64,000 nucleotides of DNA from Planctomycetaceae bacterium. GTDB lineage: Bacteria > Planctomycetota > Planctomycetia > Pirellulales > Pirellulaceae. The notes beneath the pieces are model-generated. The model searched no databases and was not told where the DNA came from. It saw nothing but the letters and a program-made list of their open reading frames with translations. Positions 55,129-63,850 of the stretch are shown one piece after another. The position numbers were made by a program, and so were the translations under genes. The DNA is taken from NCBI GenBank assembly GCA_007694185.1, contig RECD01000145.1, positions 1-64,000 of the forward strand, in the 5' to 3' direction. Within the stretch, counting starts at the first letter, position 1. The number at the start of each line of letters is the position of its first letter.

Positions 55129-56046
55129 TCAGCGGGCGTAGATCAACCTCACGATGCCGGACAACTCGTATCCCTCGGTGGCCGTTCCCAAGCCAAGGCC
55201 GGCCTGCAACTCCCAGCGATCCGTCAATTCGATGTGGGATTGTGGCACGAGAATGAAGTTACTCGTCCCGTCCAAGGCGACCGCCAAGTTGGATTCCAAC
55301 CCCAGCGTCAACCAGTCGTTGACTTCCGCGAACAGCGTCCCGTTTACTAACCGCTCGAACGATTCGAAGTTGTCGCTCCCCTCCAGATCCATCCTGCCAC
55401 CGAACATGAACAGGACACTCCAGGTTTCGTCGAGCCGCACCCCGCCCAGGTAAAGCAATGTCGAATTCCAGGTTTCGAATTGGGGCGTCGGCTCGATCAG
55501 CACCTGGACCCCATGGATGTAGTGGTCGTCGAAGGCGGTCCCGAAGGTCCACTGGATCCCCAGTTTCAGCTCCTCCAGCGTACCGCCCTCGAAAGGCAGT
55601 TCGAACTCAATCGCCAGCCGATCGCTCAGGGCGATTTCCACCTCCGGCGCCCACTCGACCTGTTGCCGGTCAGGAGTCGAGGGACCAGGCCCAAACGGGT
55701 CGTCCCCCAACTGTCGGTTTTTCGCTCTCCAAGGAAAAATCGCGAGCGTGTTGAACTCGATGTCGCCTCGCGTCGGCCCCAACGGTCGCACCAAGTCGAA
55801 CAGCAGCGGTTCGGGGACTTTCACCCCCCACCCCTGTCGGCCTCGTTCGGGCGCCGAACTCCAGATTTGTTCCCGGACAACGCCGCCTGGCCATTCCGAG
55901 TCCTCCAACGGCGAGAACGGGTGCTGGTAGGATTCGTCCGTCCATCCGTCCAGAGTAAGCGACTGTGGGTCGTCCGCCATAGCCGAACCGGCCGCCGGCC
56001 AGGCGAGGAAGAGCAGAACCAGCGGAACAACGGGCCAACGCTTCAT
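55129..56046 (-). CDS. Outer-membrane beta-barrel-like protein
   Basis: 305 aa with a signal peptide (1-25, ending AMADD). The mature part alternates hydrophobic and polar residues as in barrels (EIALSDRLAIEFELPFEGG, LTLGLESNLAVAL, HIELTDRWELQAGLGLG). It is likely a porin or transporter-like barrel of unknown substrate. The ATG at 56046 sets the signal peptide. Confidence 0.65.
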   Translation of the reverse strand: MKRWPVVPLVLLFLAWPAAGSAMADDPQSLTLDGWTDESYQHPFSPLEDSEWPGGVVREQIWSSAPERGRQGWGVKVPEPLLFDLVRPLGPTRGDIEFNTLAIFPWRAKNRQLGDDPFGPGPSTPDRQQVEWAPEVEIALSDRLAIEFELPFEGGTLEELKLGIQWTFGTAFDDHYIHGVQVLIEPTPQFETWNSTLLYLGGVRLDETWSVLFMFGGRMDLEGSDNFESFERLVNGTLFAEVNDWLTLGLESNLAVALDGTSNFILVPQSHIELTDRWELQAGLGLGTATEGYELSGIVRLIYAR

Positions 56047-56480
56047 GGATGTCAACGACCTAACCATAAATGGACAATGGGAGAACCCCTCCATGCGGGG
56101 CCCCGGTGAGCACCTTCGTCGAGCCCCTTCTGATTCGTCTTCGGCAAGCAGAACCCGCCGACTTGAACACTTGCGCAGACTTTAACGCTTGCCGAAACGT
56201 TGCAACCTGGTGGAGAATCAGGAAATTTGTCCCTGTCGGGTTCTTGGTCGGCACCTACAATGTCGGCAATCGCCGTGCGCTGGGGTGTCTTCGTAGGACG
56301 TGATCGCTCTGGGTGCCGGATCGATGGCGACGATCCATGTCCCTTCCGTAGCGACACGGTTCTGATCTCGAATCGGAGACGTTCCCGACCGCTGCGATCC
56401 GCGGGCCGCGCATCGCCCTCGGCGGCCGGACTGGTCGCTCTGTCCGCACGGCTATCCACCCCAGACTGGGAAGTTCACTC
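56047..56480. other. 434-base divergent intergenic region
   Basis: Between the outer-membrane gene (minus) and the YgiQ gene (plus), so it should contain both promoters. No convincing consensus pair or small gene was found. Open frames on both strands here lack a ribosome-binding site. Confidence 0.45.
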
Positions 56481-58801: not shown

Positions 58802-59347
58802 ATGAAAAGTTTCGTAGCACCAGCCGTGATGCCCCGCCTGAGCCGAATGCTCGGTTTGGTGATGTCATTTTCCTTGATATTGGGACCGACGGTCTCGATG
58901 GCGAGGTGTTGCTGTGTCGCTAACGAAGTTCGCCAATGGATTCGGCTTGCTGCCCCGGAAGCCGGTTGTTGCTCGCAGTCGGCTGCTTCTTCCCGATTAG
59001 CTGATGCGGTCGGCACGGACGCAGCTTCACTTGAAGCCTGCAGCCAATCGAGCTGCTGCCAGCGGACGGCGAACTTCCTCTCCGCAGTTCCTTCGTACCA
59101 GATTGATGCGGGGGATTCCGACTGTGGCTGTGAGCGGCAGTGCGTCGGCGACTTGGCTTTCGAAAATGCAGCCCTGCCGCCACTGGCCGAATCGATTTTC
59201 GACAGCCATTCCTTGGCAACCTCTTTGCCGGGTTGGGTTTTTTCCCTGGATCGCGATGCCCCTGCGCCGATCGCGGGTGCGACATCCGGTCTGCCGGTGC
59301 TCTCTGCGCAGGATCGCTGCGTGCGGCTTTGCCGCTGGCTGAATTGA
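58802..59347 (+). CDS. Secreted cysteine-rich protein of unknown function
   Basis: 181 aa. A signal peptide (about 17-34) ends at SMARCCC. There are 13 cysteines, in pairs or close groups (C36-C38, C56-57, C85-86, C108/C110/C114, C173/C177). The spacing suggests metal or disulfide chemistry outside the cytoplasm. No family recognised. It sits 123 bases before the Cys-repeat gene, in the same direction. Confidence 0.68.
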   Translation: MKSFVAPAVMPRLSRMLGLVMSFSLILGPTVSMARCCCVANEVRQWIRLAAPEAGCCSQSAASSRLADAVGTDAASLEACSQSSCCQRTANFLSAVPSYQIDAGDSDCGCERQCVGDLAFENAALPPLAESIFDSHSLATSLPGWVFSLDRDAPAPIAGATSGLPVLSAQDRCVRLCRWLN

Positions 59348-59470
59348 ATCTCGCGAACGTTGTTCTCGTTCGTTGATGGTCTCTCGCCGTTGTTTCATTC
59401 GTCGCCGTTGTGACGAACCGCGCGAACGACCGAAGGTTCAGTTTTTCCATGTTTTTTGAGAGTAATCAAG

Positions 59471-59938
59471 ATGTTCAAAACGCTATCCATCCTGTTTGCC
59501 GTGACGCTGCTCGGAGCCGTCATGGGCATGGCCGTTCGATCGAGCTTGGCCGAATCGGCGTCGATCGAGGCCTGCGCCTGCGGGGCCTGCGAGGCTACCT
59601 GCACCTGTTGTGCCGGTGGCGAATGCGTCTGCGCCGCTTGCGGTTGTGACGCTTGTGACAGTCCGGCTTGCTGCGGCACGTCGGCCTGCACCGCCGGCGA
59701 ATGCTCCGCGGGTCAAACCCTCGCGTCCACCGACGCATGCATTTGCGGGGCGTGCGAAGCTGCCTGCACCTGCTGCACCGGTGGAGACTGCGTCTGTGCC
59801 GCCTGCGGCTGCGAAGCTTGCGACAGCCCAGCTTGTTGCAGCACGTCGGCGGGTGCCGCTGGCGACGGGCTGTCTGCCTGCGCGAGCGGGGCATCGGCCT
59901 GCGGCTTGACAGCCGTTAAGTCCTGCTGTGCCAAGTAG
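59471..59938 (+). CDS. Metallothionein-like secreted Cys-repeat protein
   Basis: 155 aa. An N-terminal signal (about 5-28) is followed by two 45-residue repeats, at about 33-77 and 88-132, 35 of 45 residues identical by my count. I count 32 cysteines, in patterns such as CACGACEATCTCCAGGECVC and CDACDSPACC. The high Cys content with almost no aromatics resembles metal-binding proteins, but this one carries an export signal, unlike metallothioneins. The start at 59471 has GAGAG upstream; a Met five codons earlier is possible. The tandem repeat is also clear at DNA level, with a 165-base period. Confidence 0.75.
   Translation: MFKTLSILFAVTLLGAVMGMAVRSSLAESASIEACACGACEATCTCCAGGECVCAACGCDACDSPACCGTSACTAGECSAGQTLASTDACICGACEAACTCCTGGDCVCAACGCEACDSPACCSTSAGAAGDGLSACASGASACGLTAVKSCCAK
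59567..59866 (+). repeat. 165-base-period tandem repeat encoding two Cys-rich units
   Basis: Two similar units, 59567-59701 and 59732-59866, encode the two 45-residue Cys repeats. It looks like an in-frame duplication. Confidence 0.8.
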
Positions 59939-63410: not shown

Positions 63411-63460
63411 AGGGCGTTGGTTTGTGCCCACCTGAACTTTCGTTCCCTCGGAGACACTTT

Positions 63461-63850
63461 ATGAGACGTTTTGTTTTAGCCCTTGGCTGCACCTTCCTGC
63501 TCGTGGCCCCCGCCTTCGCCACGAACGAGTTCAACAAGGAATGGAAGGAACACTACACCGGCGAGGGTGCTGACGAGGACTTCGTGAAAACGGCCCGACG
63601 GGCCGGCTGCAACGTCTGTCACGTCAAGGGCGAGAAGAAGACCGAACGCAACGAATACGGCCAAGCGGTCCGCGAACTTCTGAATAAAGAAGACTTCACC
63701 AAGGAATGGGTCCAGGCGAATCCGGAAAAAGCCAAAGAACTGATCGTTGCCGGTCTCAAGAAAGCTGGTGAATCGAAGAGCAGCGACGGCAAAACCTTCG
63801 CCGCCAAGCTGAAGGCCGGCGAATTGCCCGCGACGGACGCTGGGCTCTGA
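63461..63850 (+). CDS. Small exported single-heme cytochrome-like protein
   Basis: 129 aa with a signal peptide (1-20, ending AFATN) and one CXXCH motif at 50-54 (CNVCH), the c-type heme site. The remainder is helical and charged. A conserved planctomycete protein of this layout is common but its partner is unknown. The start has GGAG eight bases upstream. Confidence 0.72.
   Translation: MRRFVLALGCTFLLVAPAFATNEFNKEWKEHYTGEGADEDFVKTARRAGCNVCHVKGEKKTERNEYGQAVRELLNKEDFTKEWVQANPEKAKELIVAGLKKAGESKSSDGKTFAAKLKAGELPATDAGL

Follow-up and report, generated by a model that had tools for sequence, protein, structure and literature searches.

A metallothionein-like gene and its candidate leader form a proposed copper-response unit in Planctomycetota

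The described metallothioneins (eukaryotic MT, SmtA/BmtA and mycobacterial MymT) are rich in Cys, arranged as CxC, CxxC and CxCC motifs in repeated units, and they contain few or no aromatic residues or His. Csp1 is an exported Cys-rich copper store, proposed to hold many Cu(I) ions outside the cytoplasm (PMC7558416). Among regulators, CutF of Rhodobacter capsulatus acts as an exported nascent chain: its Cys motif and C-terminal stall-like motif, combined with a stem-loop, render production of the downstream oxidase copper-dependent (PMC9973294), and the copper sensor CruR of Bordetella pertussis follows a comparable upstream-regulator logic (PMC9426467).

We analysed a window of 64,000 nt from a Planctomycetaceae bacterium (contig RECD01000145.1), in which a metallothionein-like gene, here called B, lies behind a second Cys-rich gene, A (Table 1). 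B shares the metallothionein features listed above but, unlike the metallothioneins, has a presumed export or anchor segment, belongs to a family of larger proteins and matches no metallothionein model. Like Csp1 it is Cys-rich and presumably exported; however, Csp proteins are pre-folded four-helix bundles to which the Cys lattice of B is unrelated, and neither B nor the B profile matched solved Csp chains or the Csp Pfam model. A sequence-only reading of this DNA had described B as an exported metallothionein-like metal sink and had noted that known metallothioneins are cytoplasmic. The latter is fair for SmtA and MymT but passes over the exported Csp1 copper stores, which have another fold (PMC7558416). 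The sink is still the reading best supported by composition and by variable unit number, but the partner gene A had been missed, and A with its copper-pump connection is the best clue to metal and regulation.

A resembles CutF, CruR and CzcI in its secretion signal (by hydropathy), its Cys motifs and its conserved extreme C-terminus, as well as in being the first gene before metal genes and in the predicted RNA structure that precedes the downstream gene. It differs from them in its target, a metallothionein-like gene, and in its tail, which reads LC-x-W-xx-stop with CxxxC at the stop codon and has no PP, whereas theirs are proline-rich or RAPP. None of 33 A-type proteins matched DUF2946 at E ≤ 1. 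We propose that A may work like CutF and CruR, yet it is no member of their group by DUF2946 match or proline-rich tail; from this shared logic comes our proposal that A would sense Cu(I) during export and gate B. Collectively, A and B probably constitute a two-gene copper-response unit, with B as an exported Cu(I) sink and A as a nascent-chain leader that controls it.

Table 1. Features of the A–B locus (positions in the window)
Feature	Position	Strand	Evidence or remark
Gene A, proposed LCxW leader of B; 181 aa, Cys-rich, apparently exported	58802..59347	+	Upstream of B 25/25; profile E 3.6e-4
A CCC motif after signal segment, aa 36-38	58907..58915	+	Alignments
A conserved tail CVRLCRWLN-stop (CxxxC plus W at stop codon)	59318..59347	+	Alignments
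Predicted A–B hairpin	59336..59449	+	5′ arm, A last codons and stop; 3′ arm, AAGGTTCAGTTTTTCCA immediately upstream of B
Weak Shine-Dalgarno-like GAGAG before B	59458..59462	+	Not clearly sequestered in window locus
Gene B, 155-aa presumably exported metallothionein-like protein, 32 Cys	59471..59938	+	ORF, homologues, dN/dS
B N-terminal putative signal peptide or membrane anchor, aa 1-27	59471..59551	+	Hydropathy, layout kept in homologues; putative cleavage SLA/ES
B Cys unit 1, aa 35-69, CxCxxCxxxCxCCxxxxCxCxxCxCxxCxxxxCC	59573..59677	+	Invariant Cys columns
B Cys unit 2, aa 90-124 (shares 29/35 residues with unit 1)	59738..59842	+	

Elsewhere in the window, a small exported protein with a haem-like CxVCH motif (CNVCH) is encoded at 63422-63850 (+) behind a Ser/Thr kinase gene, an order retained in G003, and an exported 321-aa protein at 55129-56094 (-) matches NCBIfam HAEPLYID only weakly, at 35 bits, which is under the cut-off.

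Gene A and the RNA before B

The linkage of A and B is directly supported: an A-type ORF was found upstream of B in 25 of the 25 loci examined, with a spacer of 57-130 nt in the 21 that were measured. The pair is flanked by ygiQ and the kinase gene in the window and in G003. It occupies a different site in G001 and G004, and G001 carries ygiQ elsewhere without the pair. Flanks thus vary even within the genus while A–B is constant, so the pair stays together as its surroundings change. In two loci (L020 and L021, in G108 and G017), a HupE/UreJ gene, identified by Pfam match and of a family linked to Ni/Co, lies ~3 kb from the pair. HupE/UreJ also neighbours His-rich CutF-like proteins (PMC9973294).

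Proteins of the A type have 146-252 residues and 13-18 Cys, laid out as a signal segment (by hydropathy), CCC, CC, CxC and the extreme C-terminus DRCxxLCRWLN-stop. Their middle is poorly conserved and their last residues are nearly fixed; the Arg codons of the tail vary across loci (CGC, CGT or AGA), so it is the amino acids that are conserved and not the RNA alone. In the genome of the window, the tail of A is the sole exact match to this pattern. A lipoprotein identity was set aside, as the lipobox fits only some homologues.

The RNA between the two genes is predicted to form a hairpin that takes up the last codons and stop of A in its 5′ arm, with z < -2 in 12 of 21 loci (window z -3.06). 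Alignment of the spacers with MAFFT and RNAalifold left the 3′ arms unaligned, and a swap test was used instead. Among 12 lineage representatives, the duplex energy between the end of A and the region before B was -22.2 kcal/mol within a locus and -17.4 kcal/mol between lineages (permutation p about 5e-5), which directly supports complementarity of the two regions in cis. In nine loci (L026, L030, L031, L032, L035, L037, L038, L040 and L068), the Shine-Dalgarno sequence of B is predicted to be mostly paired in free RNA and to open more when a ribosome sits at the end of A. Folding predicted neither such sequestration nor a change with the ribosome at the end of A in the window and several relatives; the predicted unpaired value of the window site was 0.34 in free RNA and 0.38 when a ribosome covered the A tail.

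That A is instead a stable exported partner of B, a metal chaperone or loader that is merely co-transcribed with a B that still serves as exported sink, would suit its length and Cys content, as of a finished metal binder, and the lack of a predicted Shine-Dalgarno switch at some loci. We regard this as unlikely, though deserving of attention, given a poorly conserved middle beside nearly fixed last residues, an A end that pairs in cis with the RNA before B, and leaders of the same plan that also precede pump genes. Action of A as a nascent-chain leader we consider about evenly balanced.

Proposed LCxW leaders of metal-pump operons

ORFs on the A plan (signal segment, CCC or similar, CC, CxC and LCxWxx-stop) also head metal operons that lack B. 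In 60 relatives we sampled genes that encode the CusB heavy-metal-binding domain and read their upstream regions; A-type ORFs ending LCxWxx-stop preceded about half of these HMBD/CusB genes, across the order. All loci together yielded 1615 distinct ORFs of 100-260 aa; the ending [LF]CxWxx occurs in 43, almost every one of which is an A-type leader. A loose A-tail pattern applied to 118 genomes was swamped by chance matches, and only in-frame Cys-rich ORFs were taken further.

The genome of the window itself provides an example: contig C247 carries a cusC-cusB-cusA operon (domains OEP, HlyD_D23/HMBD and ACR_tran; CusA/CzcA family TIGR00914) with a 162-aa leader at its head, whose last residues are MRCLLCVWRL. 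By alignment, this CusA has Met at E. coli CusA positions 573, 623 and 672 (chain numbering offset by 8), and M573, M623 and M672 of the E. coli protein are the three Cu(I)/Ag(I)-binding methionines of established work.

The kinship of A with the pump leaders is directly supported. Across 33 A proteins and pump leaders, C36, C86, CxC and the tail C-x-W are invariant at a mean identity of 19%. At E < 0.01, a profile built from pump leaders alone recovered 17 of the 21 A proteins, that of the window included, and 0 shuffled controls; the background ORFs that passed it were on inspection mostly further leaders. An A profile stripped of its last 14 residues recovered 1 of 20 pump leaders at the same threshold (E < 0.01), so the relationship depends to a large extent on the tail and the shared Cys positions. 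A second tail variant, CxxLCRFxx-stop with F for W, is seen in L114, L115, L124 (G144) and L118 (G068), and some leaders of this kind precede ABC permease or response-regulator-like genes rather than CusB.

Tentatively, and with slightly less than even confidence, we place A in a new class of 'LCxW' leaders in Planctomycetota. Such translational leaders would respond to metal as exported nascent chains, combining a Cys-rich sensor with an LCxWxx-stop arrest motif. By opening a hairpin of their own last codons they would control copper pumps and, in the window, B. Open-access literature on leaders of planctomycete CusB operons yielded none; an earlier description of A-type proteins is possible, because the search was open-access only and lists of CutF-like proteins may include some.

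The metal served by the A–B unit is probably copper, favoured by the cusCBA leader of the same genome, the analogy to CutF and CruR, and a B-like gene beside a Csp-like protein in G027. A unit that serves Zn, Cd or another soft metal seems to us quite unlikely. In its favour, metallothionein lattices generally bind d10 metals, and a P-type ATPase with a good Zn/Cd/Pb-type score (ZntA-like) is found two genes away from L118, an A-type leader. Against it stand the Cu/Ag methionines in the CusA behind the own-genome leader, the copper-sensing role of CutF and CruR, and the divergent B-like gene of G027, which adjoins a Csp-like copper store.

Gene B and its relatives

Gene B starts with an ATG at 59471, and its stop codon ends at 59938; an alternative in-frame TTG at 59456 would give a 160-aa product, and homologues favour the ATG. 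The other two forward frames contain stops and few Cys. In 2000 mononucleotide shuffles of the gene, the translated DNA reached a mean of 5.8 and a maximum of 17 Cys versus 32 in the real protein, so the Cys content is no artefact of composition. The sequence-only reading had given the protein 155 residues, 32 Cys and two near-identical repeats, all borne out by the ORF and by the 29/35 identity of the units. Over 35 residues each, the units agree in 84 of 105 nt and in 16 codons; the differing codons are mostly synonymous (13, versus 6 nonsynonymous), and therefore conservation acts on the protein.

The N-terminal export signal of the same reading corresponds to a hydrophobic segment at residues 7-21 (hydropathy maximum 2.3), preceded by a short M-F-K n-region. 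Candidate signal peptidase sites, SLA/ES in B and AVA/DP or AVS/SD in relatives, would suit a Sec signal peptide, with a membrane anchor as a possible alternative. Once such a signal is removed, the presumed mature protein has 32 Cys in 128 residues (25%), with 8 CxC, 8 CxxC and 5 CC, 0 His and 0 aromatic residues (F, W or Y), and no aromatic or hydrophobic core. Its composition is that of a textbook metallothionein.

Gene B is real: its relatives in > 20 Pirellulales genomes keep the Cys lattice, with a conservation of 0.86 in Cys columns and 0.40 in other columns, and are under purifying selection (dN/dS 0.08-0.28 where computable). They were found in 26 of 241 genomes of the host family (a few being of a divergent type), within the genus of the window and in at least one further family of the order (G131). 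Among the hosts with a name are Neorhodopirellula pilleata, Aporhodopirellula aestuarii and Rubripirellula obstinata. No B was detected in the genus member G002, whose contig stops just after ygiQ. Homologues span 99-255 aa, and the variation in repeat number for which the earlier reading had suggested a search was indeed found, with one unit in G003, G004 and G131, two in most and several in G664. The last of these (L042; G664:C301, 1501-2268) is a 255-aa protein with 49 Cys, in which a standard unit is followed by three near-identical repeats of CKCADCPDxCKGCEDCTEGKCVCTECADDKKSCCAKD, which we read as a recent capacity expansion. In L038 (G657:C3, 1498-1932; 143 aa, 36 Cys), a long chain of CExC/CxxC steps stands in place of the second unit.

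A divergent B-like protein of 113 aa (L044 and L045) is identical in two genera, G600 and G027, and G004:C355:2967-3263, in the genus of the window, scores similarly to it; this distribution may reflect either recent transfer or assembly contamination. In G027, its gene sits between a heavy-metal P-type ATPase fragment, for which general heavy-metal and copper models score nearly equally, and a gene whose exported Csp-like product matches RkCSP3 (E 3.4e-8).

B matched no family in Pfam, NCBIfam, PHROGs or PDB, and nothing in plasmid and phage collections. The metallothionein models of Pfam and NCBIfam likewise gave no match to B, and 1 of 20 homologues weakly matched Metallothio_Euk (E 0.033). 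An Rfam match of the B repeat to a miRNA family was rejected as far under cut-off. Open-access literature on planctomycete or periplasmic metallothioneins held nothing on point.

Exported Cys residues often pair in an oxidising compartment and planctomycetes have Cys-rich surface proteins, but a disulfide-bonded structural role for B at the surface or in a matrix, with no part in metal handling, is improbable: the odd Cys number in 12 of 21 homologues speaks against complete disulfide bonding, the CxC and CC spacing is of a kind suited to thiolate clusters, an aromatic or hydrophobic core is absent, and the leaders to which B is linked belong to a class that also precedes metal pumps.

Proposed mechanism and its meaning

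From composition and family variation, we think it likely that B is an exported soft-metal sink. Secreted or membrane-tethered, it would hold Cu(I), or a different soft metal, within extracytoplasmic thiolate clusters, with a capacity set by the number of Cys units. While being exported, the nascent A chain would most likely sense the metal, Cu(I); a pause at its C-terminal LCRWxx-stop could then alter the A–B hairpin and so control B. The position of B behind a gene of the copper-pump-leader kind suggests a previously undescribed copper-defence unit.

If this is true, bacteria would possess metallothionein-like copper sinks outside the cytoplasm, with a capacity tuned by repeat number, whereas SmtA and MymT are cytosolic. 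Planctomycetes would, moreover, measure metal at the moment of export through leaders that do not belong to DUF2946. The LCxW tail is a simple handle for finding such operons and possible arrest peptides in a phylum whose regulation has been little studied, and it suggests a metal-related role for genes that lack a family model.
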